From: Caldicellulosiruptor changbaiensis
Lineage (GTDB): Bacteria; Bacillota; Thermoanaerobacteria; Caldicellulosiruptorales; Caldicellulosiruptoraceae
Direction of reading: 5' to 3'
DNA length: 64,000 nucleotides
Assembly (NCBI RefSeq): GCF_003999255.1
Contig: NZ_CP034791.1
Span: 2,520,501-2,584,500 of the forward strand
Numbering within the stretch: position 1 is the first letter of the stretch; the number at the start of each line of letters is the position of its first letter. The notes under the pieces were generated by a model. The model was given only the letters and a program-made list of their open reading frames with translations. It was not told the DNA's origin and did not search any database. Shown here piece after piece: positions 2,365-18,770 of this stretch. A program made the position numbers and the translations under genes.

Positions 2365-2404
2365 GGAGCTGTCACAACCCTCTTGATGTGACAGCCCCTT
2401 TTTC
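2365..2404. terminator. Bidirectional intrinsic terminator between cupin and livF
   Basis: A 12-bp stem (GGAGCTGTCACA with TGTGACAGCCCC, one G-U pair) has a T run on the plus side (2399-2403) and an A run on its left, so it can end both converging transcripts. Confidence 0.8.
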
Positions 2405-3116
2405 ATCCTCCTAAGTATGCCTTTTTTACATCCGGATTTGAAGCCACTTCTTGGGATGTACCACTTAAAACTATCCTACCTGTCTCTATTACATACGCCC
2501 TGTTTGCAACGCTCAGTGCCATGTTGGCATTTTGTTCAATCAGAAGTATTGTAGTTCCACGTGCATTTATCTCTTTTATAATTTCAAATATCTCACTTAC
2601 CAAAATAGGCGCCAAACCCATAGATGGCTCATCCAATAAAAGAAGCCTTGGACGTGACATTAAAGCTCTTCCAATTGCTAACATCTGCTGCTCTCCACCA
2701 GAAAGTGTACCTGCTAACTGATTTCTTCTTTCATATAGTCTTGGAAACCTTTCAAAAACAATTTTGAGGTCTTTTTCTACCTCAGATCTGTCTTTCCTCA
2801 CATACGCACCAAGCTCCAAATTCTCAATCACAGTCATCTCTGGAAATACTCTTCTTCCCTCGGGTACATGAGAAATTCCACTTTTTACAATCTCTATTGG
2901 AGATTTTTTGGTCAAGTCTTCATTTTCGAAATAGATGCTACCTGTTCGAGGTTTTAAAAGACCTGAAATTGTTTTTAACAATGTAGACTTTCCAGCACCA
3001 TTTGCACCAATCAGTGTCACAATTTCTCCTTCATCAACCTCAAGTGATACAGAAAAAAGTGCTTGAATAGCTCCATAAAAAACATCCATATTTTGAACAC
3101 TAAGAAGCAAAGCCAA
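2403..3116 (-). CDS. livF: Branched-chain amino acid ABC transporter ATPase LivF
   Basis: An ABC ATPase of about 237 residues with Walker A GANGAGKST, signature LSGGEQQ, Walker B LLLLDEPSMGLAP and the H-loop replaced by LLIEQNANMAL, which is typical of LivF. With LivG it powers uptake of branched-chain or related amino acids through LivHM. A GTG at 3122 sits on the ribosome site; TTG at 3116 gives better spacing and is used here. It overlaps the end of livG by about 17 bases. It is the last gene of the ald-livJHMGF operon and ends at a terminator shared with the cupin gene. Confidence 0.9.
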   Translation of the reverse strand: MALLLSVQNMDVFYGAIQALFSVSLEVDEGEIVTLIGANGAGKSTLLKTISGLLKPRTGSIYFENEDLTKKSPIEIVKSGISHVPEGRRVFPEMTVIENLELGAYVRKDRSEVEKDLKIVFERFPRLYERRNQLAGTLSGGEQQMLAIGRALMSRPRLLLLDEPSMGLAPILVSEIFEIIKEINARGTTILLIEQNANMALSVANRAYVIETGRIVLSGTSQEVASNPDVKKAYLGG

Positions 3117-3873
3117 AGTCACCCTCTCCCAAATATGCCTTAATTACACGTGGATTTCTCTTAATCTCAACAGGTGTCCCCTCAGCTATGACCTCTCCAT
3201 AGTCAAGAACATATATTCTTTCACAAATATCCATTACAACTGACATGTCATGCTCTATTAAAAGTATTGTCAAATTAAACTTTTCTTTGATAAACTTGAT
3301 GAGATTTTTTAACTCCTGAGTTTCTTGGGGATTCATGCCAGCTGCAGGTTCATCCAGCAAAAGTAGTTTAGGTGATGTCGCTAAAGCCCTCACAATTTCA
3401 AGTTTTCTCTGTTCACCATAGGGGAGGTTTTTAGCAAGCTCATTTCTTTTCTCATACAAACCGAATATCTTCAATAGCTCCTCTGCTTTTTTCAAATACT
3501 CCTCTTCTTCCTTTATAAACTTTTTGTTTCTCAGGATAGCATCAAGCAAACTATATTTTACATTTTTGTGAAATGCAATTCTTACATTGTCAAGTACAGT
3601 CAGCTCTCTAAAAAGCCTTATATTTTGAAATGTCCTTGAAATACCCATAACAGCTATTTGGTAAGTTTTTTTGTTAGTTATATCACTATTTTCAAACCTT
3701 ATATATCCCCTGTTTGGTGTATAAAGTCCAAGAATGACATTGAAAACTGTTGTTTTACCTGCACCATTCGGACCGATAAGACCAATGATTTTCCCTTCAT
3801 CCACATCAATCTCTACATTGTTGAGGGCAATAATACCTCCAAAATTCATTGTCACTCCTTTTAATTTAAGCAT
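3100..3873 (-). CDS. livG: Branched-chain amino acid ABC transporter ATPase LivG
   Basis: A 257-residue ABC ATPase. Walker A is GPNGAGKTTVFN, the signature region LPYGEQRKLEI, Walker B LLLLDEPAAGMNP, and the switch His is in LIEHDMSVV. The Gly-Met-Asn-Pro after Walker B and the C-terminal IKAYLGE tail are LivG hallmarks. It starts at ATG behind GGAGGGG. It sits between livM and livF with almost no spacing, as in a standard liv operon. Confidence 0.92.
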   Translation of the reverse strand: MLKLKGVTMNFGGIIALNNVEIDVDEGKIIGLIGPNGAGKTTVFNVILGLYTPNRGYIRFENSDITNKKTYQIAVMGISRTFQNIRLFRELTVLDNVRIAFHKNVKYSLLDAILRNKKFIKEEEEYLKKAEELLKIFGLYEKRNELAKNLPYGEQRKLEIVRALATSPKLLLLDEPAAGMNPQETQELKNLIKFIKEKFNLTILLIEHDMSVVMDICERIYVLDYGEVIAEGTPVEIKRNPRVIKAYLGEGDFGFAS

Positions 3874-3875
3874 CT

Positions 3876-4811
3876 TTAAACTCCCCTCCTTTGAAATGAG
3901 AGTATATCTGAAAGTCTTATCTCTCTTTTTCCTAAAAGTCCCTGTGGCCTGAACAACATTATGATTATCAAAATAATTGAATAGAGCACCATTCGCACGG
4001 CAGGCACATTTTGAAGCAGCGTTGAGACAATTGTCAGCACTATAGCAGCTATTATTGAACCTGACAAGCTCCCCAAACCACCTAAAACCACCATAACAAG
4101 GATGTCTATTGATTTAAAAAAGTTGAATATGTCTGGCTGAATAAATCCAAAGTAACCAGCATACATTCCTCCACCAATTCCCGCAAAAAATGCGCCTATC
4201 ACAAATGCTAGTACTTTAAAAAGTGTTGTATTAATCCCTATGGTCTCTGCCGCTATCTCGTCTTCTCTTACTGCTACCATCGCTCTTCCATAAGAAGAGT
4301 TTATAATGTTTGAGAGGATTATTATGGTCAAAATCGCAATGACATAGTAGCCAGTCCAGTCAATTCCCTGAGGTATATCACTGATACCGCTTGCGCCGCC
4401 TAAATAGTCGATATTTTGTATAACAACCCTGATAATTTCTGCAAATCCCAATGTGGCAATAGCTAAGTAGTCACCTCTTAATCTTAGCACTGGAAGTCCT
4501 ATAATAAGCCCTGCAAAGGCTGCAAAAACCCCACCTATCAAAAGACTTAAATAAAATGGAAGCGGTTTGGGAAGAGTTATCAAAACAGCCACAGTATATG
4601 CTCCAATTGCCATAAACCCTGCATGCCCTAAGGAAAACTGTCCTGTGATCCCACTTATTAAATTCAAACTTGTTGCAAGTATTATATTAAGAAGAATCAA
4701 AAGGATGTTTAGCTTGATATAATCATCAATTATTCCCACTTTCATGCCCAATGTAAAAATAGCATAAATTATCAAAATCACAGCCAGGATTAATATCCTT
4801 TTTCTCATCAT
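3876..4811 (-). CDS. livM: Branched-chain amino acid ABC transporter permease LivM
   Basis: A 311-residue polytopic membrane protein with about eight to nine hydrophobic segments. The stretch GQFSLGHAGFMAIGAYT and the cytoplasmic loop GRAMVAVREDEIAAETIGIN (the EAA-like loop that contacts the ATPases) are typical of LivM. It starts at one of two adjacent ATG codons behind AAGGTGTG. It forms the permease heterodimer with LivH. Confidence 0.92.
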   Translation of the reverse strand: MMRKRILILAVILIIYAIFTLGMKVGIIDDYIKLNILLILLNIILATSLNLISGITGQFSLGHAGFMAIGAYTVAVLITLPKPLPFYLSLLIGGVFAAFAGLIIGLPVLRLRGDYLAIATLGFAEIIRVVIQNIDYLGGASGISDIPQGIDWTGYYVIAILTIIILSNIINSSYGRAMVAVREDEIAAETIGINTTLFKVLAFVIGAFFAGIGGGMYAGYFGFIQPDIFNFFKSIDILVMVVLGGLGSLSGSIIAAIVLTIVSTLLQNVPAVRMVLYSIILIIIMLFRPQGLLGKREIRLSDILSFQRRGV

Positions 4812-4820
4812 TTCCCACTA

Positions 4821-5705
4821 TCACACCTTTTCCTTTAAACTCTTACCAAGCAAACCAGCTGGTTTGAATAACAAAATCAGTACCAAGATTGCAAATGCAA
4901 CTGCATCTTTGTACATTGAACTGCCATACCCACTTACAAATGTCTCAATAATCCCAAGTGAAAAACCTCCCAGCAATGCCCCTGGAATAACCCCTATTCC
5001 GCCAAACACCGCTGCAATAAACGCCTTTATTCCTGGTAACACACCCATCAGAGGGTTGATGGTGTTATAATACAGGCCTACCAACACACCAGCAGCACCG
5101 GCAAGGCTCGAACCAATAGCAAATGTATATGAAATGGTCTTGTCAATATCAATCCCCATTAGCTTTGCAGCATCCATGTCTTGAGAAACTGCTCTCATGG
5201 CTTTCCCTATCTTTGTATTCTTAACAATGTAGTTGAGCACTATCATCAGGATTATTGTAATAATGAGAAGATATACCTGTTTGTTATTTACAACTATATT
5301 GCCATGTAAAAAGTGGTAATTCTTTTCTTCTATGAGGCGGGGGAAGACCCGAGAGTCTGCCCCCATTATAAGTTGCATGAAGTTTTCTAAAAAGAGAGAA
5401 ACACCAATTGCAGTAATCAAAATAGAAATTTTGGGTGAGTTTCTAAGTGGTTTATACGCTATTTTTTCTACGATAATTCCACAAAGTGCGCAAAATACCA
5501 TTGCAGCTATCAAACATCCAACCAGATTGAGTTTGAGATAGACAGCTGCCAAAAATCCAATGTAAGCACCAAGCATGAACACATCTCCATGTGCAAAGTT
5601 TATAAACTTCAAAATTCCATAGACCATTGTGTAGCCTAAAGCAATCAGGGCATAAACACTACCTAAGGTGATCCCATTGATTAGCTGCTGGACAAATGTA
5701 GACAA
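4821..5705 (-). CDS. livH: Branched-chain amino acid ABC transporter permease LivH
   Basis: A multispanning permease of 294 residues. The start is placed at TTG (5703-5705), eight bases downstream of an AGAGGTGA ribosome site, giving the usual LivH length; the frame stays open upstream to an ATG at 5756, but that lacks a ribosome site. Family marks include GYTMVYGILKFINFAHGD near the N-terminus, the loop GKAMRAVSQDMDAAKLMGID and a C-terminal LLFKPAGLLGK. It lies between the binding-protein gene and livM in the operon. Confidence 0.92.
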   Translation of the reverse strand: MSTFVQQLINGITLGSVYALIALGYTMVYGILKFINFAHGDVFMLGAYIGFLAAVYLKLNLVGCLIAAMVFCALCGIIVEKIAYKPLRNSPKISILITAIGVSLFLENFMQLIMGADSRVFPRLIEEKNYHFLHGNIVVNNKQVYLLIITIILMIVLNYIVKNTKIGKAMRAVSQDMDAAKLMGIDIDKTISYTFAIGSSLAGAAGVLVGLYYNTINPLMGVLPGIKAFIAAVFGGIGVIPGALLGGFSLGIIETFVSGYGSSMYKDAVAFAILVLILLFKPAGLLGKSLKEKV

Positions 5706-5782
5706 TATATATGTCACCTCTTTTCTTAGCGCACTTGTTCTTTTTTTTATGCCCATTTATTGTTTTTTTAAAAATTACATCT

Positions 5783-6958
5783 CTACGGATTTATCTTTTG
5801 TTTAAATACCTGAACACCGTTTTTGAGTTCTATAATCACCGCAGCCTTTTGGGCATTGTGATATTTGTTTATAGTAATGACTCCTGTCACACCTGCAAAA
5901 TTTTTGGTATCTTCTAATGCTTTTCGCAGTTTTTCTCTATCTGTTGTTGAATTTGCACGTTTTATTGCGTCAGCTACAAGATAAACAAGGTCGTACGAGG
6001 TTGCTACAAAAGCATTTGGTTCATTTTTGTATAGCTGCTTATATTTTTTAATGAAATCCTGAACTTTTTTATCGGGATCTTGACCAGAATAATGTGTTGA
6101 GAAATAAACATTATTAGCATACTTACTGCCTGCTTTTTCGGCAACCTTTGGATCGTCAAACCCGTCGCCACCCATTATTGGAACTTTAATTCCAAGCTCA
6201 CGTGCTTGTTTAATTATCAAACCTGCCTCATCATAATAAACAGGTGCAAAAATTGCCTCGGGGTTCTTTGCTTTTATCTTTGTAAGGATTCCACTAAACT
6301 CCTGCTCACTTTTAGCAAATGCCTCTTCGGCAACAATCTTACCTCCTCCTTTTGTGAAAGCAACTTTAAAGTTTTTTTCTAAACCTTTACTGTAATCCGA
6401 AGAAGCATCGTATATAATAGCAACAGATTTTACTTTGAGAGTTTTTAAAGCAAATTTAGCCATCACATCACCTTGGAATGAATCATTAAAGCACACTCTG
6501 AACACATATGCTTTTGTTTTACCTGTTCTTTCGTCAAGTGTAAGCTTGTCATCTGTAGCTGTAGGCGAGATAATTGGAATTTTGTATTTCATGGCTGCAA
6601 CGGCTGCTGACTTTGTTGCACCTGATGTTGTACACCCTAAAATTGCAAGAACATTCTCTTTTGTTGCAAGCCTTGTTGCAATATTAAGGGCTTCGGTTTT
6701 ATCAGACTTATTGTCAAATATTACAAGCTCTATCTTTTTGCCCAAGATACCGCCTTTTTTGTTTATCTCATCTGTTGCCATCTTGATTCCCTCTAACGCT
6801 CTTTGACCATATTGAGCAACAGCTCCCGAAAGCTCTAAATTCACCCCAAGCTTAATAGTACTACTTGACTTTGAGTAACTCAAAAGGCAGCTGCCAACAA
6901 GAAGGGTAAAAATAGCTATAAACACTACTACTCTTTTGAAAACTTTGCCAAACTTCAT
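5783..6958 (-). CDS. Amino-acid ABC transporter substrate-binding protein (LivJ/LivK family), copy 1
   Basis: A 391-residue secreted receptor. Residues 1-30 form a signal peptide with basic start, hydrophobic core and a possible lipobox ending VGSC, so it may be a lipoprotein. The mature part is a type I periplasmic-binding fold (Peripla_BP_6): LSGAVAQYGQ, the hinge-region TKENVLAILGCTTSGATKS and a ligand-contact Tyr-Asp-Glu stretch. It is clearly paralogous to the protein at 13494-14687. Ribosome site AAGGAGGAGAGG. Its place before livHMGF makes it the likely receptor for that transporter. The ligand could be alanine, proline or branched-chain amino acids and cannot be set from sequence. Confidence 0.88.
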   Translation of the reverse strand: MKFGKVFKRVVVFIAIFTLLVGSCLLSYSKSSSTIKLGVNLELSGAVAQYGQRALEGIKMATDEINKKGGILGKKIELVIFDNKSDKTEALNIATRLATKENVLAILGCTTSGATKSAAVAAMKYKIPIISPTATDDKLTLDERTGKTKAYVFRVCFNDSFQGDVMAKFALKTLKVKSVAIIYDASSDYSKGLEKNFKVAFTKGGGKIVAEEAFAKSEQEFSGILTKIKAKNPEAIFAPVYYDEAGLIIKQARELGIKVPIMGGDGFDDPKVAEKAGSKYANNVYFSTHYSGQDPDKKVQDFIKKYKQLYKNEPNAFVATSYDLVYLVADAIKRANSTTDREKLRKALEDTKNFAGVTGVITINKYHNAQKAAVIIELKNGVQVFKQKINP

Positions 6959-7001
6959 TTTTACCTCTCCTCCTTATCCTTGAAGATTTTTCTAAATCGT
7001 T

Positions 7002-8120
7002 TTATTGTAAAACTACCAATGGGTCGGCATAATTAAAGCCAAGAGATTTTGCAACACCTTCATGAGTTATCATTCCATCACACACATTTAAGCCCCTTCT
7101 TAACTCTGGGTTCTCCCGAAGAGCTCTTTTGTATCCTTTGTTCGCAATTTCAAGAACATATCGAAATGTTGCATTTGTCAAAGCTATTGTAGATGTTCTT
7201 GGAACAGCCCCAGGAATGTTTGCAACACAATAATGAACAACCCCATGTTTTATAAAATATGGATTTTCATGAGTTGTAACTCTATCAATTGTTTCAACAC
7301 ATCCTCCCTGGTCAATGGCTACGTCAACTATAACAGCACCATTTTTCATTTCTTTTACCATCTGTTCTGTGACCAGTTTTGGTGCTCTATACCCCGGAAT
7401 TAAAACAGCCCCTATCAAAACATCTGCATCCTTAACAGATTCTTCAATTGTATAATAGTTAGAAACACGGGTCTGAATTGAACTTCCGAATATATCATCT
7501 AAATAGGTCAATCTCTTGATGTCAACATCCAAAACAGTTACCTTCGCGCCCATACCAATTGCTATTTTAGCTGCATTCAAGCCAACAACACCACCTCCCA
7601 ATATCACAACATTTCCTCTTTCTACACCTGGAACACCGCTGAGGAGCACTCCTCGCCCGCCGTTGTGCTTTTCTAAAAGCCATGCAGCAATCTGAACTGA
7701 CAGTCTACCAGCTATCTCACTCATTGGTCGTAAAAGTGGCAAGCTTCCATCATCTTCTTGAACTGTTTCATATGCTATTGCAATTACACCTTTTTTGAGC
7801 AACACTTGGGTCAGTTCTTGATTTGATGCTAAATGAAGATAAGTAAAGAGTATTTTTCCTTCTTCCAAAAACTCATACTCGCTCTTTTGAGGTTCTTTGA
7901 CCTTTACTATCATCTCGCAGCTGTGGTATATCTCATCTGGCGTATCTACAATTACAGCACCAGCCTTTATATATTCTTGGTCAGAAAAGCCACTTCCTTC
8001 CCCTGCTCCTTTTTCAATGTAGACCTGATGTGAAGCTTCAACCAGGGCTTTAACCCCCCACGGGGTTAGCGCCACCCTATTTTCATTTTCTTTTACCTCT
8101 TTAGGAACTCCAATTTTCAT
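7002..8120 (-). CDS. ald: Alanine dehydrogenase
   Basis: A 372-residue NAD-dependent alanine dehydrogenase (alanine to pyruvate, ammonia and NADH). It shows MKIGVPKEVKENENRVALTP, the substrate Lys in VKVKEP, the His in YLHLAS, and the NAD-binding stretch VVILGGGVVGLNAAKIA. The start is ATG 8120 behind a GGGGG ribosome site; an upstream in-frame start at 8141 would add seven unneeded residues. It is the first gene of the ald-liv operon and is preceded by a promoter-hairpin leader nearly identical to that of the proline-reductase operon. In context it would supply reducing power in a Stickland-type fermentation. Confidence 0.93.
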   Translation of the reverse strand: MKIGVPKEVKENENRVALTPWGVKALVEASHQVYIEKGAGEGSGFSDQEYIKAGAVIVDTPDEIYHSCEMIVKVKEPQKSEYEFLEEGKILFTYLHLASNQELTQVLLKKGVIAIAYETVQEDDGSLPLLRPMSEIAGRLSVQIAAWLLEKHNGGRGVLLSGVPGVERGNVVILGGGVVGLNAAKIAIGMGAKVTVLDVDIKRLTYLDDIFGSSIQTRVSNYYTIEESVKDADVLIGAVLIPGYRAPKLVTEQMVKEMKNGAVIVDVAIDQGGCVETIDRVTTHENPYFIKHGVVHYCVANIPGAVPRTSTIALTNATFRYVLEIANKGYKRALRENPELRRGLNVCDGMITHEGVAKSLGFNYADPLVVLQ

Positions 8121-8246
8121 AGGTATTTTACCCCCTTGCAAATAATGCTGTTGAAATGATATAATTGTGGATACATTGTCGACTTTTAAAATCCCTTCTT
8201 AAAAAGAGAAGTAATGCTGGGCAACAGGTTTTTTTTAATTGAAAAA

Positions 8247-8281
8247 GGCGAAGGTCCCCCTTTCCGAGAGGCACCTTCGCC
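8247..8281 (-). terminator. Promoter-proximal hairpin/intrinsic terminator in the ald-liv leader
   Basis: On the minus strand GGCGAAGGT pairs with ACCTTCGCC and is followed by TTTTT. It starts only about 17-20 bases after the predicted transcription start and so lies between promoter and gene. It may end transcription from prdF, act as an attenuator, or both. The same sequence, loop included, recurs at 16300-16333. Confidence 0.65.
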
Positions 8282-8306
8282 TTTCTTTCTTTATTCTTTT
8301 GCTGAT

Positions 8307-8335
8307 ATTTTAACCAATTTTATCTGACCTGTCAA
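8307..8335 (-). promoter_or_regulatory. SigA-type promoter of the ald-livJHMGF operon
   Basis: Minus strand: a perfect TTGACA (8330-8335), a 17-base spacer and TAAAAT (8307-8312). Transcription would start near 8300, just before a strong hairpin. Confidence 0.7.
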
Positions 8336-8390
8336 TTCCAAAAAATTATTCATTATTGCCTCAAAAATTGTGTATTTTGTTAGATTAAAC

Positions 8391-9398
8391 TTACATTATC
8401 ATAAAACCAAATTTCAAAGGGTCATCTTTCTCAATAACTAATTGATTAAATCCTGTAATATAAGCTTTAGCTGTTACTTCTGGTACAATAGCCGTAAAAT
8501 CTCCCACTTTTGTCTCTTTAACAACTTGTCCTTTAAAGACTGTACCGATTATACTTTCATAGTAAAATGGAGTATTTGCTCTCAAAAGACCTTTTGCATA
8601 AAGTTCTGCCATCTTTGCACAAGTACCTGTTCCACAAGGGGACCTGTCAACTTGTCCTTTGCCAAAAACTACAACATTTCTCAATGTAGCACTTTCGCTT
8701 GTTGGTGGTCCGTAAAATTCAACCAAATCTACTCCAGATATATTTGGCATAAGCGGATGAACAACTTTAATCTTTTCATTGAGAGCATATTTTATTCTCA
8801 TCCCAAGTTTTATTATCTTTTCTAACTCTTGTGGTACTATTTTTAAATTTAATTTTGAAGCGTCAACAAGAGCAAAGAAATTCCCTCCATAGGCTATATC
8901 CACATTTAGCTCTCCAATTTCTGGAATGTCAAGAGTAACACCTGATTGATATAAAAACGAGGGTACATTTCTCACCGTAACAAACTCTATTTCACCGTCT
9001 TTGATAGATGCCCTTGTAATTACAAGACCCGCAGGTGTTTCAACTATTATTTCTGTTTCATTACTTTCTGCTTTTACAACCCCCATCTTTATGGCAACAG
9101 TCACAGCACCTATTGTTCCATGAACACACATGTTTAAATATCCACCACTATCCATGTATATAAGCCCAATATCTGCTTCAGATAACGTGGGCTGTGTCAC
9201 AACTACCGCAAACATATCTTTGTGTCCCCGAGGCTCATTTACTAAAGTTTGCCTTATAAAATCCATATGAGCTCTCATATATTCCTTTTTTTCAAACATT
9301 GTCATACCTGGGATTCTACCAACACCGCTTAGCACAACCCGTGCAGGCTCACCCACCACATGGGTGTCAACAACGTATAATATCCTTTCAAATTCCAT
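8391..9398 (-). CDS. prdF: Proline racemase / hydroxyproline epimerase family (PrdF-like)
   Basis: A 335-residue protein. Both catalytic cysteines of the two-base racemases are present: Cys91 in NMCVHGTIGA and Cys255 in DRSPCGTGTC. The first motif has Val where the family usually has Gly (MCGH). Two cysteines argue for racemase/epimerase activity rather than the 3-hydroxyproline dehydratase variant. It would convert L- to D-proline (or a relative) for the reductase encoded upstream. It is the last gene of the prd operon and is followed by the hairpin at 8247-8281. Ribosome site GGTGATG. Confidence 0.85.
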   Translation of the reverse strand: MEFERILYVVDTHVVGEPARVVLSGVGRIPGMTMFEKKEYMRAHMDFIRQTLVNEPRGHKDMFAVVVTQPTLSEADIGLIYMDSGGYLNMCVHGTIGAVTVAIKMGVVKAESNETEIIVETPAGLVITRASIKDGEIEFVTVRNVPSFLYQSGVTLDIPEIGELNVDIAYGGNFFALVDASKLNLKIVPQELEKIIKLGMRIKYALNEKIKVVHPLMPNISGVDLVEFYGPPTSESATLRNVVVFGKGQVDRSPCGTGTCAKMAELYAKGLLRANTPFYYESIIGTVFKGQVVKETKVGDFTAIVPEVTAKAYITGFNQLVIEKDDPLKFGFMIM

Positions 9399-9443
9399 TT
9401 AACATCACCAGCAGTTAAACTTGTCTCAAAAGGCTTAATAATT

Positions 9444-10172
9444 TTATATCCTCGCCCTGTATTCATATGGAAGCTCTATAACCTCACCAAACCTGTTTAT
9501 TGACTTTAGTGCAAGCAATGCATCTTTTAAAATTGCCTTTTGCATATTGACATTATTAGGTTCACCAGCATTGGCGCCAATCGGGACTTTTGGTGCAACA
9601 ATTCGAGGCGCTCCTTGGTGTTTTGCAACAGGTGGCAAAGCTGCTATAATCACTGTCGGAATCCCTTCCCTTTCAATCGCTCTTTGGACAATTACTGCTG
9701 ACCTATGGCAAGTTCCACACCCTGCTGTCAAAACAGCTGCGTCTACTCCTGTTTCTTTTAATAGCCTTGCAATAGCAGGTCCTGTTTCTTCTGTAAACTT
9801 TTGTGTATTTCCTCCTCCACCCATAAAACCAATGTGGATTTTCGCAACACCTCTTATAAACCCTTCTTGTGCTAGTTCTCTTAACCTGTCAATTGGAAAC
9901 ATACAATTGATGTCTTTGTTTACGTCAGTGTTGTCATACCCCCCATGTGTCACCATCAACTCAGAGGAGGGCGTATCACCTGGAATCTCTCTGTAACTAA
10001 AATCCCCTGCTAAATTGAAAGGCTTTTGAGATTTCAGATGAACACCTGCAGCTGTGACCAGTGCAACAACACAGTCTTTTAAATCTTTAGTAAGCGGTGT
10101 AAATACAGGTTCTGGTACAACTGGAACATAAACTTCTGAGCGAATTCCTTCTATTACCCAGTTTGTTACCAT
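9444..10172 (-). CDS. prdB: D-proline reductase PrdB-like subunit with Cys in place of selenocysteine
   Basis: A 242-residue protein of the GrdB/PrdB family. In the studied proline and glycine reductases the active-site loop reads Sec-Gly-Thr-Cys. Here it is AGCGTCHRSA with an ordinary TGT codon at Cys152, so no UGA readthrough is needed. Other marks are GFMGGGGNTQKFTEETGPAIARLL and REGIPTVIIAALPPVA. With the pyruvoyl-bearing PrdA subunit it would reductively cleave D-proline to 5-aminovalerate. It starts with ATG behind AAGGGGGAG. Substrate identity is inferred from operon context; a related cyclic or amino acid is possible. Confidence 0.85.
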   Translation of the reverse strand: MVTNWVIEGIRSEVYVPVVPEPVFTPLTKDLKDCVVALVTAAGVHLKSQKPFNLAGDFSYREIPGDTPSSELMVTHGGYDNTDVNKDINCMFPIDRLRELAQEGFIRGVAKIHIGFMGGGGNTQKFTEETGPAIARLLKETGVDAAVLTAGCGTCHRSAVIVQRAIEREGIPTVIIAALPPVAKHQGAPRIVAPKVPIGANAGEPNNVNMQKAILKDALLALKSINRFGEVIELPYEYRARI

Positions 10173-10196
10173 CTTGGACTCCCCCTTTTTGGTTTT

Positions 10197-10412
10197 TTAC
10201 TGTTTATTTACCATTACATAACTCATATAAAGCTCAACCTCATCTCCTGTTTGAGGATATTTCTCTGTTATCAGCATTCTAAGTGGAATGCGCATCATTC
10301 CTAATCTACTGTCAAACTGAATGACAACATCTCCTTCACTAAGATCAACAATTTTGCCTTTTATAAGGTTTATAGGCAAGCTATATACATCAATCTCTCT
10401 CATCCTACTCAC
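10197..10412 (-). CDS. Small protein of proline-reductase clusters (CBO2463/CBO2479-type)
   Basis: A 71-residue protein between prdA and prdB. Its first codon GTG overlaps the prdA TGA; an internal ATG three codons on is also possible. It is predicted to be all-beta, with alternating hydrophobic strands and no membrane segment or Cys. I recall a small protein of this kind in clostridial prd operons, sometimes labelled with the CBO2463/CBO2479 domain. Its role is not known to me. Tight coupling with prdA and prdB suggests an assembly or structural role in the reductase complex. Confidence 0.7.
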   Translation of the reverse strand: MSRMREIDVYSLPINLIKGKIVDLSEGDVVIQFDSRLGMMRIPLRMLITEKYPQTGDEVELYMSYVMVNKQ

Positions 10413-12109
10413 ACCCTATCAACTAAGGATTGGTTTTTCTCAATAACTGCCGGGTCCCATTTGCTAAATGGTGGAAGTATCTTTCCTCCTGACATTTTGG
10501 TTTTAAGCATCGCCAGCGCTCTTCTTGCATCCTCAGGACAAAGAGTATTTTCTGCTAAAATTTCAGATTCAATCCCTTCTTCATTTTTATTAAGTTCAAC
10601 CATTGCATCCATATACTTGTTGCCTACAATTAGTGAGCCCTGCACACCTGCAAAAGTGACTCCCACAACAGGGATACCTCGTTTTCCTATCTGCTCAATG
10701 TGCCATGCAAAATCTATGTGATTGTTGCCAAAACCTTCTGTTGTGACAATTGCCCCCTCCACTCCCATCGCTTCTATAAGCATTCCTAAACGTTCTGAGA
10801 CATACAGTTTTTCTTGATTTGCCTGTGGACTGCCAACAAACACAACACCTACAAGGTTCAAATCATTATCAGCTCTCAAAAGCTCAACCAAAGGTTCTCT
10901 TATGTAATGTCTTGTGGTCTCTTTTGTAGCTGGTCCGACACATGTCAAGGCATGTATAGCGCCGTCTAAAACCTCATTTGAAGAAAGGACAACTGGAACA
11001 TTTCCTAAGTCAACATTGCATCTTCCACCTAAAACACCACACGGCTCATTTGGAAGTATAATGTTGTCATGCATAGCACCCTGGCCCATTATCTCTTTGA
11101 CTATAACTACTCGCGGTCTTCCCTTTTTGTCAACCTCAACAAGTTCTTTTATTGAACTTGCCTCAGAGGCACTTTTTGTCTTGAGAACTTCTCTAATTTG
11201 TTGAATGAATACATCACACACCTTGTGCGCTGCATATGGTCCTCTTCTTTCCATACCTGTTCTTCTTTCAATAACAACATCTACTCTAATAATGATATCA
11301 TCCTCATCGGGGCAGCCTGGTCTTCCAAACTTTATCTTTTGGCTCAAAATCCCTTCACATGAACCAAATTCATGAATCTGAACACCATCTTCATCAACTC
11401 CTGTGAGGATTACAACCACACCTTTAAGTATGTTTGTAATGCCTTCTCCAATTTTACCTTCAACCTTTGTGGCAATTGGAATTACATCTAAAATGGTATT
11501 TGTGAAGATATCCCTCTTGTCAGGCTCAATAACATCTATACTTACTTTTTTTACAATAGGGTCAATACTGGAAATCTCATTTACTATGTCTTTTTTCAAC
11601 ATCAATACTCCATCTTGAATTGAGATTCTGTCAGCCCACTGTACTTTTTTAATCTCATATTCCCTCAATGTTAAAACTCTCTTAATTTTCTCTTTTTCTT
11701 CAACCTGATGTTGCTGCGGGAAAAACTGCAGCAGTGAAGTAGGTATTTCAAACGTAATGTTCTTACCCTCACCAATACTTACTCTTATTGGAGAATTGTG
11801 TTCACTTGTATTAAATGCTGATACAATATTTTGTTTTTCAACTTTACAAGCGGATGACAGCTCCTCTTCTATCAAATCAGGAGTGACTGGAGTTAGCGGC
11901 TGAAGAGTTTTTTTGAGTCTCTTCCCCAAAACTTCTTTTATTTTTAATACATTTGAAGGAAGTTGCAAAAATCCACCTGATTGAAGTTCAGGTAAAATCT
12001 CTGGCTCTTCTAAATTTTCAGGTCCGATAATAGTTCCAGCCTCGGTAAGGCAGCATACAACTGCTGGTTCTTCAAAATACCTTTCAATATTTTCATGTGA
12101 GATTGCCAT
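10409..12109 (-). CDS. prdA: D-proline reductase proprotein PrdA (pyruvoyl subunit precursor)
   Basis: A 566-residue protein from ATG 12109, behind AAAGGGGGTG. The frame also opens at 12133 with no ribosome site of its own. The C-terminal third matches the PrdA/GrdE proprotein. Around residue 390 the motif HALTCVGPATKET contains the Cys where self-cleavage is expected to create the pyruvoyl group, giving a larger and a smaller subunit. VVFVGSPQANQEK and EGFGNNHIDFAWHIEQIG follow. An N-terminal RnfC/PrdC-like barrel segment may be present at about 50-160. Upstream is prdC, downstream prdB. The cleavage site is inferred by motif position only. Confidence 0.88.
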   Translation of the reverse strand: MAISHENIERYFEEPAVVCCLTEAGTIIGPENLEEPEILPELQSGGFLQLPSNVLKIKEVLGKRLKKTLQPLTPVTPDLIEEELSSACKVEKQNIVSAFNTSEHNSPIRVSIGEGKNITFEIPTSLLQFFPQQHQVEEKEKIKRVLTLREYEIKKVQWADRISIQDGVLMLKKDIVNEISSIDPIVKKVSIDVIEPDKRDIFTNTILDVIPIATKVEGKIGEGITNILKGVVVILTGVDEDGVQIHEFGSCEGILSQKIKFGRPGCPDEDDIIIRVDVVIERRTGMERRGPYAAHKVCDVFIQQIREVLKTKSASEASSIKELVEVDKKGRPRVVIVKEIMGQGAMHDNIILPNEPCGVLGGRCNVDLGNVPVVLSSNEVLDGAIHALTCVGPATKETTRHYIREPLVELLRADNDLNLVGVVFVGSPQANQEKLYVSERLGMLIEAMGVEGAIVTTEGFGNNHIDFAWHIEQIGKRGIPVVGVTFAGVQGSLIVGNKYMDAMVELNKNEEGIESEILAENTLCPEDARRALAMLKTKMSGGKILPPFSKWDPAVIEKNQSLVDRV

Positions 12110-12163
12110 TTTGCGCACCCCCTTTTTCAGCACAATTTTTTTTAGCGTTAAAAGAAGTAAACC

Positions 12164-13462
12164 TCATACCTCTATCCTTCGCAAAAGTGGATAGCCTAAG
12201 GTTTCAAGTACGTGGTCAGTATGATGAATAACCTTCAAACCCATTTTTTCTGCTATTTCTACTACTGTATTTGTACAGTTGGTACATGTGCTAATAAGCA
12301 GACACTCAGCATTCAGCTTTTTAAGCCTTAAAACCTTTTCAGCCTGGCCAGGACAATTGCCAGGATTTTTGCAGCGTGGCTTACCATTGGCATATACAAG
12401 ATTTTTGCACTTTTCTATACCAACCAAACTTGCCCCCATTTTCTTTACAAGCTGCAAAAGCCTTGTCTCTTTTGCACCACATGCACAAACAAGTATGCCT
12501 ATTTTTGCTTTGAGCTTCTCTGAAATAGGAGGTGTGACAATTACCGCATTGGTTTTCTTTGTAATTGGAAACTCTTGATTTCCTTCTTCACCCATAAAAG
12601 GTCCACCCAGCAGTATTTCATCATATTCTGACAACAAATACCCTTTTATCTTACAAAGGTCTTTTACTGAAAGTCCTATAGGCACATCAAAAAGCGCCTT
12701 TACTACCTTCTTATCATTAAATACACCAGCAAGTGTGAGGTTCCTTTCAATAAGAGGTTTCCTCATCTCAACTGCTTCAGCAATCCGAGAGAGAGTTTCA
12801 ACATTTAGTACAATACAGTTTGCAGCCAAAGGGATCTCAGAAGGAGGCAATAAAACTCCACATATTTTAGCAACCAAAGCTCTTTCTTCCCCAGCTGGAT
12901 AAGTATCTTCTATTAGCTTTATTTCAATATTTTCCCTATCAATTACTTTCTCAATTGCTTCTATTGCCTTTTTGTTCATTTTTTTGATAGCAATAACTCC
13001 TTTTGAAGCTTGGAGATAACTCATCACATATATAAGACCGCGGTAAATAAGCTCCGGGTTATTCTCCATCTGGGTAATGTTGTGAACTAAAATAGGTTCA
13101 CACTCAACACCATTTGCAATTACAGTTCCGCCCTTTATTTTGTTCTTAAGCTTCAGATAAGTAGGATAACCCCCACCACCCATCCCCACAATCCCAGCTT
13201 TTTGGACAATGTCTATAAGGTTCTCTTTCTCGGTAATTTCAAGTGGTAAAAATTCCTTATCATCTACTGCATCGGTTAAAATCTCTATACAGTCTTCTGA
13301 AATACTTGTTACCTTCCCTGTTACACTTGAGTGAACATACACACCTTCTTCTTTTGGAATCGCAACTGTCTGCCCTCTTTTAACCTTTTGTCCAACTTCC
13401 ACAACAGGAATTGCATTCTTCCCATTGTACTGCTTTAAAGAGATGTTCACTTTAAAAGTCAT
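12164..13462 (-). CDS. prdC: PrdC-like electron-transfer protein (RnfC family)
   Basis: A 432-residue soluble protein. The N-terminal barrel-like region (EVGQKVKRGQTVAIP, VHSSVTGKVTSI) and the GIVGMGGGGYPTYLK nucleotide/flavin-site motif are those of RnfC-type proteins. The C-terminal 120 residues carry a Cys set (CACGAKE, CKNLVY, CKNPGNCPGQ, CTNCTN) likely to hold a redox or metal centre. Studied PrdC proteins can be selenoproteins; here all positions are plain Cys. The proposed role is electron delivery from NADH to the proline reductase. Ribosome site GGAAGGGA, and it is directly upstream of prdA. Confidence 0.8.
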   Translation of the reverse strand: MTFKVNISLKQYNGKNAIPVVEVGQKVKRGQTVAIPKEEGVYVHSSVTGKVTSISEDCIEILTDAVDDKEFLPLEITEKENLIDIVQKAGIVGMGGGGYPTYLKLKNKIKGGTVIANGVECEPILVHNITQMENNPELIYRGLIYVMSYLQASKGVIAIKKMNKKAIEAIEKVIDRENIEIKLIEDTYPAGEERALVAKICGVLLPPSEIPLAANCIVLNVETLSRIAEAVEMRKPLIERNLTLAGVFNDKKVVKALFDVPIGLSVKDLCKIKGYLLSEYDEILLGGPFMGEEGNQEFPITKKTNAVIVTPPISEKLKAKIGILVCACGAKETRLLQLVKKMGASLVGIEKCKNLVYANGKPRCKNPGNCPGQAEKVLRLKKLNAECLLISTCTNCTNTVVEIAEKMGLKVIHHTDHVLETLGYPLLRRIEV

Positions 13463-13493
13463 ATCAATCCCTTCCAGCTGGTAATTAAGATTT

Positions 13494-14687
13494 TTATGGC
13501 GTAATCCTTCCCCTAAACTTCATAACACCGTTTTGTATTTCAATCACAACTCCTGAGTGTTGTCCATTGTGTTTACTATCAATGGAAATTGTACCTGCGA
13601 TACTTTTATAATTAGTAGTCTTTTCAAGAGCCTCTCTTAACTTTTCTCTATCCGAAATTGTATTCGCCCTTTTAATAGCGTCAATTAAAAATTTTCCAGA
13701 AACATAGCCAAGAGCTGCTATGCTATTTGGTTCAACTTTATATCGTTCTTTGTACTTTTTAACAAAATCTTGCACTTCTTTATCGGGACTTTGAGAAGAG
13801 TAAAATGTTACAAAATATACATTGTTACAATATTCTCTACCTGCTGTTTCAACTGTCTTTGGGTCATCCAAAGCATCGCCACCGATTATAGGTACATTGA
13901 TCTTAAGTTCTCGCGCTTGCTTTATAATCAAACCTGCCTCATCATAATATACAGGCGTGATAATTGCTTGAGGCTTTTTAGCCTTGATCTTTGTGAGAAT
14001 GCTTCTGAAGTCTTGTTCGCCCTGAGAAAATGCCTCTTTCATAACAATCTTTCCACCTGCTTTGGTAAACGCTTCTTCAAACCCTTTGGTAACCTCTTTA
14101 CTATAGTCGTTCGAAGCATTGTACACAATAGCAACATTTTTGAGTTTGAGTGATGAAATAGTAAACTTAGAAATCAACGCGCCTTCTATTGAGGAGCTAA
14201 AACATATCCTGAAAACATATTTCTTTGTTTTGCCAGTTCTCTCATCAACTGTTACTGTCTCTGCAACAGCATTTCCTGTAATAAGTGGTACTTTGTACTT
14301 TTCGGCAGCCAACGATGCAGACTTTGCAGAACCTGAGGTGCTAAGTCCAACAATCGCTAATACTTTCTCTTTTGTTGCAAGCCTTGTTGCAATATTCAAA
14401 GCTTCTGCCTTGTCAAACTTGTTGTCAAACACTAAAAGCTCAATCTTTGCTCCATTTATTCCGCCTTTTTGATTAACCTCGTCTATTGCTAACCTCAACC
14501 CTTCTAAGTTTCTCTGACCATATTGAGCACCCGTTCCTGATAAAACATCATTCACCCCAATCTTTATAACCTTTTTACCAGTGGCTGAAAATCCAGATGT
14601 ATTACCAAAGCTCAACACAATGGCAATACAAATAGCAAAACATAGTACCAATAACCTCAAAAGTTTTTTACTTTTCATTCTCAACAT
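13494..14687 (-). CDS. Amino-acid ABC transporter substrate-binding protein (LivJ/LivK family), copy 2
   Basis: A 397-residue secreted binding protein with a signal peptide (residues 1-32: basic start, long hydrophobic core, SFGNTSGFSA cut region; no lipobox). It is a close paralogue of the protein at 5783-6958: shared LSG..AQYGQR, EALNIATRLATKE and DERTGKTK.YVFR. It starts at ATG 14687 behind GGAGGT. It lies in the prd operon without permease genes, so it probably feeds the LivHMGF system encoded in the neighbouring co-regulated operon, giving one transporter two receptors. Proline or another reductase substrate is a reasonable ligand guess. Confidence 0.87.
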   Translation of the reverse strand: MLRMKSKKLLRLLVLCFAICIAIVLSFGNTSGFSATGKKVIKIGVNDVLSGTGAQYGQRNLEGLRLAIDEVNQKGGINGAKIELLVFDNKFDKAEALNIATRLATKEKVLAIVGLSTSGSAKSASLAAEKYKVPLITGNAVAETVTVDERTGKTKKYVFRICFSSSIEGALISKFTISSLKLKNVAIVYNASNDYSKEVTKGFEEAFTKAGGKIVMKEAFSQGEQDFRSILTKIKAKKPQAIITPVYYDEAGLIIKQARELKINVPIIGGDALDDPKTVETAGREYCNNVYFVTFYSSQSPDKEVQDFVKKYKERYKVEPNSIAALGYVSGKFLIDAIKRANTISDREKLREALEKTTNYKSIAGTISIDSKHNGQHSGVVIEIQNGVMKFRGRITP

Positions 14688-14718
14688 AGAAACTATACCT
14701 CCTCATTTCCATACTTTT

Positions 14719-16071
14719 TTACAGTCCATTTTGCAAACAGTACTTTATTGCTTCTTCTAAGACATTCAAGCCATACTCTGCCTGCTCCTGTGTCATGACA
14801 AGTGGTGGCAAAAGCCTCAAAACATTGCTGTATATACCTGCGCTTATAAAAATCACTCCTCTTTGGTAGGAGAATTTTATAACCTCTTTTACAAACTCAG
14901 GGTAAGGCTGTTTTGAATTTCTGTCCTTTACAAATTCAATTCCCCACATTGCAGCAGTTCCACGAACATCTCCAATCACACTATACCTTTCAAACATCCT
15001 CTCCAGTTTTTCTTCTATAATTTTCCCTAATCTCTTAGCATTTGCTAAAAACTCTCCCCTTGCAAACTTTTCTATCACTACATTTGCCGCAACACAGGCT
15101 AAAGGACTTCCTGCATATGTCCCACCTACTCCTCCCTCATCAGGAGCATCCAAAATCTCTTTTCTGCCAACTACTGCACTGAGTGGTATACCATTTGCGA
15201 TGGACTTTGCAACTGTTATCAGGTCGGGCTCTAAACCAAAATACTCACTGGCAAAAGTATAACCAGTTCTGCCAAACCCTGTTTGAATCTCATCTACAAT
15301 GAACACAAAACCATTTTCTTTGCAAAGATTTTGAAGTTCCTGAAGATACCTCTTTGGTGGAACAATTATACCACCTTCTCCTTGAATTGGCTCAACAATA
15401 ACTGCTGCAATATCCTCCGGCGACACTTCGGTTGCTATGAACTTTTTTATTCTTTCAATGCACTCTAAATCACATTCAGGATACTTGTATGTATGATTGC
15501 ATCTGTAACAATAGGCATATGGAATCTTATAGACATCTGGTATAAATGGTCCAAAACCATGCTTGTATGGTTTTACTTTACTTGTAAGTGTGAGTGCAAA
15601 GTATGTTCTCCCATGAAAAGACCCTTCAGCAGACAATATAACTCTCTTTTTGGTATACTTTCTGCTAAGCTTAATAGCATTTTCAACCGCTTCAGCTCCG
15701 CTATTTGTTAGAAGCACCTTTTTTTCGTATTTTCCAGGTGCAATTGAAACAAGTTTTTGTGCAACATTTATATAAGGCTCATACATAGCAACATGAAAAC
15801 AAGGATGTATATATTTCCCAACTTGCTCTTTTATTGCTTCAACAACCTCATCATCACAATGACCTGCATTTTGCATCCCAATCCCACTTGCAAAATCTAA
15901 AAAAATGTTGCCATCCACATCTTTAATAAGTGCACCTTTTGCTTCTTCTACAAATATGGGAATAGCATTACTTATCCCTCTTGACACCAGCTCTTTTCTT
16001 TTTTGCAGGAGCAATTTTGATTTCTCACCCGGAACCTCAGTTTTTATTTCTGGAAGAACATTTTCAATCAT
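14719..16071 (-). CDS. Class III aminotransferase or amino-acid racemase (PLP, GabT/ornithine type)
   Basis: A 450-residue fold-type I PLP enzyme. The start is ATG 16071 (ribosome site AGGAGGA); the frame extends to 16137 without one. Marks: LTNSGAEAVENAIK, VDEIQTGFGRTG (the PLP-ring Asp) and the PLP Lys in TVAKSIANG. The Cys-rich insert AYCYRCNHTYKYPECDLEC recalls archaeal ornithine aminotransferase and broad-range racemase members of this family. As first gene of the prd operon it could make proline precursor from ornithine, turn over 5-aminovalerate, or racemise an amino acid. Sequence alone does not decide. Confidence 0.8.
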   Translation of the reverse strand: MIENVLPEIKTEVPGEKSKLLLQKRKELVSRGISNAIPIFVEEAKGALIKDVDGNIFLDFASGIGMQNAGHCDDEVVEAIKEQVGKYIHPCFHVAMYEPYINVAQKLVSIAPGKYEKKVLLTNSGAEAVENAIKLSRKYTKKRVILSAEGSFHGRTYFALTLTSKVKPYKHGFGPFIPDVYKIPYAYCYRCNHTYKYPECDLECIERIKKFIATEVSPEDIAAVIVEPIQGEGGIIVPPKRYLQELQNLCKENGFVFIVDEIQTGFGRTGYTFASEYFGLEPDLITVAKSIANGIPLSAVVGRKEILDAPDEGGVGGTYAGSPLACVAANVVIEKFARGEFLANAKRLGKIIEEKLERMFERYSVIGDVRGTAAMWGIEFVKDRNSKQPYPEFVKEVIKFSYQRGVIFISAGIYSNVLRLLPPLVMTQEQAEYGLNVLEEAIKYCLQNGL

Positions 16072-16299
16072 TTTTTGTCCTCCTTTAGTAGGATAGGCCT
16101 TTTTAATCTCTAGAAATTTCTCTTTTGCGTATATCATCCTCTTTTCAGCTATTATTTTTATTTTTTGATATCACCTCCTTTTTATAATGTTGTATCAACA
16201 CGCTTAAGATGATATAATATACGCTGCATCATTTTTAAGTGTTTTAATTGCAATTGAGTTATATTAAGAAATCTTGTAGGGTATGTATAAATTAAAAAA

Positions 16300-16333
16300 G
16301 GCAAAGATGCCTTTTTCGGTAGGCACCTTTGCC
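16300..16333 (-). terminator. Promoter-proximal hairpin/intrinsic terminator in the prd-operon leader
   Basis: Minus strand: GGCAAAGGTGCC pairs with GGCATCTTTGCC (one G-U) and is followed by TTTTTT. It begins about 20 bases after the predicted start of transcription. It matches the ald leader hairpin in sequence as well as shape, with the shared AAGGTGCCT..CG.AAA loop side. Confidence 0.7.
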
Positions 16334-16359
16334 TTCCGTTCCTTTTTCTTTTGATTTTT

Positions 16360-16387
16360 ATTATAGTTTTCTCGCTCTTAATGTCAA
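16360..16387 (-). promoter_or_regulatory. SigA-type promoter of the aminotransferase-prd operon
   Basis: Minus strand: TTGACA (16382-16387), 16-base spacer, TATAAT (16360-16365), both boxes perfect. No competing promoter is seen between it and the gene at 16071. Confidence 0.7.
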
Positions 16388-16439
16388 TATCAAACATATA
16401 TTCGCAGTAGCTATAAAATTAGACATTAAATAATACGGC

Positions 16440-16690
16440 TGCCTCACAACTTCCGCCTTTCCAAACAACTTTCGATTACTCTAAACCTCGTAAGAGCAAG
16501 TGACCCCCGTTGGTCTTGCGGCTTTATCTTCGCGTACTGCCCTAATTCCCATAGATCAAAACCTCATCTCACCTCATGAGATGTTTTCTATCTCTTAGGA
16601 GAGCTTCAATCTCCCCAGGAAGAACCTCCCTTTAGCGCATGTCTATGGAACTAAACGGTAATTGCATGGTTGTAATCCTGACTGTTAATG
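16440..16690. other. Relatively GC-rich, structured remnant, perhaps the tail of an IS200/IS605-type element
   Basis: This stretch is richer in GC than its surroundings and has several short inverted repeats, for example CATCTCACCTCATGAGATG. It has no intact ORF of note. On the minus strand it looks like the non-coding 3' end that follows tnpB genes. It stops close to the left end of the ISL3-type element. Identity is a guess. Confidence 0.25.
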
Positions 16691-16719: not shown

Positions 16720-18168
16720 TTGGGGTGGGGAAATAAAAAAGAGCACTTGTTTTGAATACCTGGTATAATATTATATTATTGATAAAAAGGAGAAAAATAC
16801 AAAAGAAAAGGAGGTATTCAGAACAAGTGCCTGACATAAATTATATCACCCAATTATTAAAATCTGAAGATGTAATAATAGAGGATATAGTGGAAAATGC
16901 AACTGAAGTAGAACTTTATATAAGACTTAGGCAAAAAGTACATATTTGTCCCAATTGCAAAGCCCAGACTTCAAAAGTTCACGATTACAGAATTCAAAGA
17001 ATTAAAGAAATACCGATGCTGGGAAAGAAGACATACATTGTGATAAGGAAACGCAGATATGTTTGTAAAGTTTGTAAAAAGAGATTTTATGAACAAGTAG
17101 ATTTTTTACCGAAATATCAAAGAATGACAAATAGATTGGCAGCATGAACAGTAAAGTCAATTAGGAAATACAATTAGCATGACATAAGTTGCGAAGTTGT
17201 CAAACGTATCTGTTTCAACAGTGATGAGGTTATTTGATAAAGTTAGTCCAGTGGAAGCAAAAGATGAATTACCAGAGGTCATATGTATAGATGAATTTAA
17301 AGGACATGCAGGTGGAGCAAAATATCAATGCATAATTGTAGATCCTTTAAATGGCAAGATAATAGATATTTTGAAAGATAGGCGACAGGAGGTTTTAACA
17401 GAATATTTCAAGAGGTTTAAGAATCGAGATAAGGTAAAGTATTTTATCTGCGACATGTGGAAGCAATTTGCTGAGATAGCAAGGATATATTTTAAGAAAG
17501 CAAAGGTAGTTATAGATAAGTTTCATTTTGTGAGGTATGTCTACTGGGCGGTAGAGAATGTACGCAAAAGAATACAAAAGAATTTAGGCAAAAGTCTTAG
17601 GAAGTACTTCAAGAGAAGCAGGAAATTGATACTTAAAAGATATGAGAAACTTAAGCCTGAGCAGAGAGAAGAATTAGAAGTAATGTTTTTATATGCACCG
17701 GAATTAAGGATAGCTCACAGATTGAAGGAAGAATTTAACAAAGTATTAGAAAGTAAGACATGTGATGAAGCAAAGGAGAAGCTCAAGAAATGGATAGAGA
17801 TGGCAGAATCAAGTAATGTAGAAGAATTCCAAAGGTGTGTACGGGTATTTAGGAATTGGTTTTCAGAGATAGTGGAATCATTTGAGGTACTATATACAAA
17901 TAGTTTGACAGAAGGATTTAACAACAAGATAAAGGTGTTAAAGAGGAAAGCATATGGATTTAGGAATTTTGAAAGGTTTAGGAAGAGGATACTGTATAGT
18001 TGTACAGACTAAGAATATGGAAGAGGTAAATATTTAAAAGTTCCCTTTTTAATAGGGGATAGAAGGTGTTGATGAGTTTTTGCAATCAAATAATTATGAT
18101 TGTTATTGTTGTAATTAAATACATGCTTAATTAAACTGAAAGGTGGGCATTCAGAACACCCACCCCAA
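16720..18168 (+). mobile_element. Degenerate ISL3-family insertion sequence
   Basis: The ends carry the inverted pair TTGGGGTGGG (16720-16729) and CCCACCCCAA (18159-18168). They enclose about 1.45 kb with one interrupted transposase gene. An internal inverted repeat of about 19 bp (CACTTGTTTTGAATACC at about 16744-16760, complement at about 16812-16828) lies at the left end. No clear target duplication was found by eye. Confidence 0.65.
16827..18012 (+). pseudogene. ISL3-family transposase, interrupted by stop codons and a frame change
   Basis: The N-terminal piece (to 17147; frame open from 16752, likely GTG start near 16827) has the ISL3 zinc-ribbon: CPNC about 30 residues into it and later CKVCKKRF. 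After RMTNRLAA the frame hits TGA, then TAG. The continuation 17197-18012 is in another frame and has MSNVSVSTVMR (helix-turn-helix) and the DDE region: VICIDEFKGHAGG (first Asp), VICDMWK-like FICDMWKQF (second Asp), VIDKFHFVRY and TEGFNNKIKVLKRKAYGFRN (Glu). Several independent stops show real decay rather than one sequencing error. Confidence 0.8.
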
Positions 18169-18232
18169 CTCTTGACAAAGAGCCAAATGAATTTGTAACA
18201 ATATTCCAAGTCTCAAAACCCTTGAAAACAAA

Positions 18233-18309
<77 letters not shown>

Positions 18310-18318
18310 GCATTTAAA

Positions 18319-18394
<76 letters not shown>

Positions 18395-18420
18395 ACCTGT
18401 TATTTTTTTATTAAATTAAA

Positions 18421-18496
18421 TGGAGCTGGCGATGGGACTCGAACCCGCAACCTGCCGATTACAAGTCGGCTGCTCTACCGATTGAGCTACGCCAGC
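18421..18496 (-). tRNA. tRNA-Thr (TGT)
   Basis: Acceptor GCTGGCG/CGCCAGC, anticodon loop CTTGTAA (TGT, reads ACA), encoded CCA. Confidence 0.95.
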
Positions 18497-18513
18497 ACCA
18501 TTTTTAATCTTAG

Positions 18514-18598
18514 TGGTGGAGGGGGTTGGATTCGAACCAACGAAGCCTGCGGCAACAGATTTACAGTCTGCCCCCTTTGACCACTTGGGTACCCCTCC
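18514..18598 (-). tRNA. tRNA-Tyr (GTA)
   Basis: A class II tRNA with a long variable arm. Acceptor GGAGGGG/CCCCTCC, anticodon loop CTGTAAA (GTA), encoded CCA. Confidence 0.95.
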
Positions 18599-18693
18599 AT
18601 TTTTTACTCTCTTCTTTTTTAAGAGCCGACGTTTCTGTATTTTAGCATAGGCTTTACCTTTCTGTCAATACCCTTTTTAACAAACTCTTTTAA

Positions 18694-18770
18694 TGGTCGG
18701 GGTGAGAGGACTTGAACCTCCGGCCCCATGGTCCCAAACCACGTGCTCTACCAAGCTGAGCTACACCCCG
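18694..18770 (-). tRNA. tRNA-Pro (TGG)
   Basis: Acceptor CGGGGTG/CACCCCG, anticodon loop TTTGGGA (TGG, reads CCA), encoded CCA. First in the cluster. Confidence 0.95.

Follow-up and report, generated by a model that had tools for sequence, protein, structure and literature searches.

Probable ANTAR-controlled, single-hexaloop attenuators in the leaders of the prd, ald and other nitrogen-related operons of Caldicellulosiruptor changbaiensis

The RNA targets of ANTAR proteins contain a six-base hairpin loop (hexaloop) with A at position 1 (A1) and G at position 4 (G4), overlapping a terminator, and are known upstream of ammonium transporter, nitrogenase and glutamine synthetase genes (PMC3369931). 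In the crystal structure of EutV with RNA, one dimer engages one hexaloop at a time and a single hexaloop is the minimal binding motif; G4, on which Tyr164 of EutV stacks, gives a base-specific contact (PMC8934654). We analyzed a 64,000-nucleotide stretch of the C. changbaiensis genome (contig NZ_CP034791.1, positions 2,520,501 to 2,584,500, forward strand; hereafter the window), in which two minus-strand leaders precede an operon for D-proline reductase (prd) and an operon beginning with the alanine dehydrogenase gene (ald-liv). The eut consensus AGCAANGRRGCUY (PMC3369931) matches AGGCAAAGGYGCCU of the present leaders. Like the EutV/eutP, NasR/nasF and AmiR/amiE RNAs (Ramesh et al. 2012, PMC3369931), they have an A1/G4 hexaloop hairpin overlapping the 5' arm of a terminator, a nitrogen-gene setting and an ANTAR gene in the genome; unlike those RNAs, they have one hexaloop rather than two. 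Compared with EutV/eutP-type RNAs, the stem is also longer (5-8 base pairs against ~3), and the whole hairpin lies inside the terminator 5' arm in the g1 leaders. The ribonucleic antiterminators (RAT) of the BglG/SacY-LicT type are likewise single protein-stabilized hairpins overlapping a terminator, but they are ~30 nucleotides long, serve sugar operons and are read by PRD-domain proteins (general knowledge and PMC3369931), whereas loop and gene set differ here. From sequence comparison we consider it probable that these leaders are attenuators under ANTAR control. They would belong to a nitrogen regulon to which prd and ald were added after lateral acquisition of the two operons.

Both window leaders begin at a SigA-type promoter on the minus strand. 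The promoter of the aminotransferase-prd operon (TTGACA-16-TATAAT, window positions 16360..16387) agrees with the hexamers at 12/12 positions, and that of the ald-liv operon (TTGACA-17-TAAAAT, 8307..8335), in the gap past the racemase gene, at 11/12. The prd leader contains an intrinsic terminator (16294..16338, minus, -26.4 kcal/mol), whose 5' arm includes the whole of a putative antiterminator hairpin, CGGaAGGC[AAAGGT]GCCTaCCG (16317..16338, minus; hexaloop 16330-16325), with a helix that covaries across copies and a free energy on its own of -10.1 kcal/mol (37 C). In the ald leader, folding and covariation placed the terminator at 8242..8285 (minus) and the corresponding putative antiterminator hairpin, GAaAGGC[GAAGGT]GCCTcTC, at 8266..8285 (minus; hexaloop 8278-8273, with G1 and G4). 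The two terminator hairpins had z-scores of -6.0 and -5.7, and 0 shuffles folded equally well. An earlier note on this DNA, made from the letters alone, had described near-perfect promoters at these places, hairpins 15-20 bases past them, and a likeness of the two leaders over about 60 bases. Each of these observations was borne out: the hairpins start ~22 bases past the end of the -10 box and ~15 past the predicted start site, and local alignment of the leaders covered 65 bases with one gap at a score of 35; dinucleotide shuffling of the leaders gave scores of 10 on average and 17 at best (500 pairs). The promoter-proximal A-rich tract, the hairpin and the T run are common to both. A covariance search of the window scored these two copies at 76.4 and 68.4 bits and found no other strong one, the next separate site reaching 16 bits.

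A covariance search, which the earlier note had proposed for related genomes, was run on relatives and also on the whole genome, where copies had been sought first by pattern. It found seven copies in the genome (81-57 bits), below which we observed antisense copies and unrelated or chance terminators, all at <=33 bits. The five additional copies, which the earlier note did not contain, were observed before glnA (genome position 668900, plus), before the ammonium transporter gene amt and the nif cluster that follows it (2742746, minus), before an amino-acid-binding-protein gene (2729181, minus), before a pyrimidine/hydantoin-type catabolic operon (391931, plus), and 3' of that operon, with an alanine racemase gene ~770 bases further on (402721, plus). 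Copies of the L014/L023 type also lead an amino-acid-binding-protein gene. The genes that follow six of the copies are concerned with nitrogen assimilation, amino acids or nitrogen compounds; the seventh copy (402721) lies where the pyrimidine-type operon ends. The operon at 391931 encodes an Fe-alcohol dehydrogenase, a PucR regulator, a cytosine/allantoin-type permease, an amidohydrolase, an aminotransferase and a dihydroorotate dehydrogenase/PreA-like protein. A degraded metallo-hydrolase-like gene separates its leader from the catabolic operon (L101:4000-5318; G000:C1 ~392000-393317), as if the leader had originally served that now decaying gene. Three pattern matches in the genome (L004, L007, L008) were dropped for want of the promoter plus T-run layout, and three model matches (62096, 937950, 2627104) were dropped as chance or ordinary terminators.

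Homologous leaders occur across the class. Within the genus, an orthologous leader was observed before glnA in 12/12 genomes, and most of the 12 also have one before amt and one before the binding-protein gene. In other families leaders precede amt, binding-protein genes, a type-III glutamine synthetase gene, phoU and a polar amino-acid binding protein gene (nif, type-III glutamine synthetase, phoU and the polar amino-acid binding protein were named by eye from translations, without a family search). The leader before the phoU-like gene, with the stem ATGAAAC/GTTTCAT, was observed as a hexaloop-terminator leader in two genomes of family f3 (L289 = G028, L290 = G030) and hints at a link to phosphate control. 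A pattern search of the relatives allowing three mismatches, run with controls, gave mostly chance matches outside the genus. Because the same switch stands before them, glnA, amt-nif, the amino-acid-binding protein, the pyrimidine-type operon, ald-liv and prd would form one nitrogen regulon. The earlier note had proposed co-control of a Stickland module, and prd and ald do both carry the element; the element is not specific to them, however, and would serve a nitrogen regulon of general scope that takes in glnA, amt-nif and amino-acid uptake, so that nitrogen status is a likelier signal than proline, alanine or 5-aminovalerate.

In every copy a SigA promoter is followed by a short A-rich stretch and by a segment for which two folds are possible. 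One fold is the intrinsic terminator, with 13-17 pairs and -25 to -30 kcal/mol. The other, absent from the earlier note, is formed by the 5' arm of the terminator alone, which folds into a hairpin of 5-8 base pairs with a six-base loop, e.g. amt—GAAAGGC[AAAGGC]GCCTTTC; glnA—TGAGGAC[AAAGGC]GTTCTCA; 391931—CCGAtGGC[AAAGGT]GCCTCGG. The loop consensus is C-[AA(A/G/T)GGN]-G, on a C-G closing pair. Alone, the small hairpin is much weaker (-5 to -11 kcal/mol at 37 C, -1.5 to -4.4 at 65 C), so the terminator should win without help. The small hairpin covaries: double-change cells numbered 25, against 7.7 in shuffles and <=7 when slid. Among 31 distinct hairpins, 149 of the 186 stem cells were paired, compared with a mean of 115 and a maximum of 131 after shuffling. 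The terminator helix, mutually exclusive with the small hairpin, also covaries. Loop positions 2 (A) and 4 (G) and the closing C-G pair were invariant in all 31, around which the stems vary as GGC/GCC, GAC/GTC, AAAC/GTTT and AAGC/GCTT, and A1 was observed in 30/31, ald being the exception. When real glnA leaders were sampled, 13 of 16 had a strict form of the motif, compared with 36 of 8000 after shuffling. The hexaloop hairpin thus overlaps and excludes the intrinsic terminator, with both helices covarying, as in an ANTAR target.

The strength of the terminator folds could suggest that the hairpins are ordinary unregulated terminators, either marking the 3' ends of the genes before them or duplicated as premature stops together with a promoter cassette. 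The ald copy, placed 3' of the prd operon, would terminate prd and may indeed also end prd read-out transcripts, and the prd and 402721 copies lie within a duplicated promoter-leader cassette of ~230 bases. Such an explanation nevertheless leaves the second, mutually exclusive covarying helix, the fixed loop amid changing stems, and the promoter-to-gene placement in nitrogen-related operons here and in relatives without a cause, and the lower stem (CGG/CCG, CCGA/TCGG) falls outside the strong terminator pairing; we regard it as very unlikely. The earlier note had considered that related genomes might show plain 3' terminators with no conserved loop, and we found the opposite. Near-perfect dyads directly 3' of nitrogen-gene promoters could also be read as a double-stranded DNA operator for a GlnR/TnrA-like nitrogen regulator. 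The T runs and G-U pairs fit RNA, and a stem that varies with its pairing kept around a fixed single-stranded loop is the opposite of what an operator would show, which makes this the most improbable of the explanations considered. Loop, leader position and both alternative helices are conserved, which upholds the shared regulatory element with a conserved loop of the earlier note, and its suggestion of a very short attenuator or RNA-binding protein site is the reading that fits best.

A ligand-binding riboswitch built on the small hairpin and sensing, for example, glutamine or ammonia status would suit both the nitrogen-related gene set and the structural switching in the leader. A hairpin of 20-22 nucleotides with a six-base loop is, however, very small for a metabolite pocket. 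Rfam at gathering thresholds gave no match, and permissive thresholds gave chance-level matches to unrelated families only, in agreement with the earlier statement that no known riboswitch class was recognizable. A riboswitch would moreover leave the pattern of ANTAR loss described below unexplained, and we think it highly improbable.

Exactly one ANTAR (PF03861) protein, composed of a pseudo-receiver and an ANTAR domain, is encoded in the C. changbaiensis genome (G000:C1 ~2233750-2234400, L052:1474-2058, minus). The neighbors of this gene encode an HD-GYP-like protein, a peptidase-C26/GATase-like hydrolase and an MscS-type channel. Of the 37 class genomes, 35 encode an ANTAR protein; the gene adjoins glnA in families f3 and f4. 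We compared ANTAR presence with the glnA hairpin in the 36 class genomes having a readable glnA leader. The hexaloop hairpin was present in 34/34 readable ANTAR-bearing genomes (with a mismatch in the stem in G022), while in the two without an ANTAR gene (G019 and G024) the glnA leader had no hexaloop, and neither genome gave a match to a second covariance model (R2).

These observations bear on whether the ANTAR protein or another trans-acting factor (a different RNA-binding protein or a small RNA) recognizes the hexaloop attenuator. Two substitutions in the genus (EutV Tyr164 to Met and the receiver Asp to Glu) would agree with such a factor, as would a single hairpin unlike the known ANTAR target. 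Against it stand the identity of the loop consensus with the ANTAR one, the absence of the hairpin where ANTAR is absent, the linkage of ANTAR to glnA in f3 and f4, and the canonical dual motif in outgroup glnA leaders, so that we judge a different effector unlikely, if less so than the other alternatives.

Several points weigh against ANTAR control and have to be set beside this evidence. Full EutV-mediated antitermination needs two hexaloops (PMC3369931, PMC8934654), and the dual arrangement of two hairpins (P1 and P2) joined by a short linker was not found in C. changbaiensis, each of its 7/7 leaders having a single hairpin. The loop of the ald leader has G at position 1. The receiver Asp that would be phosphorylated is Glu throughout the genus (PDVVIMEYGF), which makes activation by phosphorylation doubtful; Asp is kept in f3 and f4. 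In an alignment with EutV, the position of Tyr164, which stacks on G4 there (PMC8934654), is Met in the genus, while the RNA-contact residues Arg142, Lys149, Glu160 and Met172 are kept. Finally, the joint loss of ANTAR and hairpin concerns two related genomes and may be a single event, which makes the presence/absence pattern supportive rather than conclusive.

The glnA leaders of the genus likewise have one hexaloop hairpin only, and in those of outgroups G038 and G040 the canonical pair is present; in G038, one P2 hairpin of such a dual leader also has G1. Across leaders the hairpin starts ~0-20 nucleotides from the predicted transcription start, and in glnA it starts ~7 bases past the -10 box, within a base or so of the predicted start site, which leaves no room for P1. 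In several f3 glnA leaders (L134-L140) a possible second A1/G4 hexaloop, GGGT[ATTGGC]ACCC, was observed further downstream, in the loop of the terminator, and may be a second hairpin that has been rearranged. The EutV crystal motif is also a single hexaloop, but antitermination there needs both in succession (PMC8934654), whereas one apparently serves here. Most likely, then, to judge from these comparisons, the element is not a dual-hexaloop ANTAR RNA but a one-hairpin variant that works like one. Literature searches returned no paper linking ANTAR to D-proline reductase, nor any on ANTAR with glnA in Firmicutes.

Under ANTAR control, RNA polymerase would start at the SigA promoter, make the intrinsic terminator within ~60 bases and terminate by default. 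The 5' arm of the terminator could instead fold alone into the hexaloop hairpin, and when nitrogen is limiting the single ANTAR protein would bind the hexaloop and hold the small hairpin. With the hairpin held, the 3' arm could not pair to complete the terminator, so polymerase would pass into the operon.

The prd operon begins with a class-III aminotransferase gene (14719..16137, minus), whose likelier start is ATG 16071, preceded by AAAGGAGGACAAAAA. It continues with genes for an amino-acid-binding protein, PrdC, PrdA, PrdB and a proline racemase family (PrdF-like) protein (8391..14687, minus), and ald with the branched-chain amino-acid ABC (ATP-binding cassette) transporter genes occupies 2403..8141 (minus). 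The PrdB frame (window 9444-10172) is without TGA and has Cys (TAGCGTC) at what we take to be the selenocysteine position, so the D-proline reductase here appears to be of the cysteine form. PrdA was above the family cut-off in no other of the 37 class genomes, and full-length ald was found in no other genus member examined. The nearest PrdA proteins, at 60-62% identity, are those of other thermophilic Firmicutes (Fervidicola, Thermosediminibacter and kin), where the hairpin is missing from the prd locus out to 9 kb from prdA; the leader therefore probably did not arrive with the prd operon. The ~230 bases in common to the prd leader and the 402721 copy span promoter, leader and downstream sequence, and the A-rich tract and stem base of the ald leader are nearly identical to those of the amt leader. 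We infer that prd and ald are recent, laterally acquired additions to the nitrogen regulon, and on the simplest reading each acquired operon would have been placed under nitrogen control when it captured a copy of a promoter-leader cassette already resident in the genome. An ISL3-family transposase gene and a five-tRNA gene cluster (window 17197-18770) adjoin the prd/ald block, which fits its lateral acquisition. Immediately upstream of the prd promoter (window 16430-16660, minus) the sequence is richer in G+C and looks structured, with several small inverted repeats; this stretch had no match in Rfam and is possibly a mobile-element or noncoding-RNA remnant.

Taking these parts together, we lean towards a class-wide single-hexaloop ANTAR nitrogen regulon in anaerobic thermophiles, in which one 5'-end hairpin would be enough without a recruitment hairpin, the receiver of the genus would not be phosphorylatable at the usual site, and prd and ald would have been wired in by cassette capture. 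For ANTAR antitermination in general, genetics points to a need for two hairpins and the crystal structure to contact with a single one at any time, and a natural one-hexaloop regulon, if confirmed, would answer this question. It would also represent a very small (~45 nucleotides) protein-controlled RNA switch from thermophiles, of a type that ANTAR searches demanding two hairpins would miss. For these anaerobes it would explain the control of nitrogen genes, and in C. changbaiensis D-proline reductase and alanine dehydrogenase would be predicted to respond to nitrogen supply.

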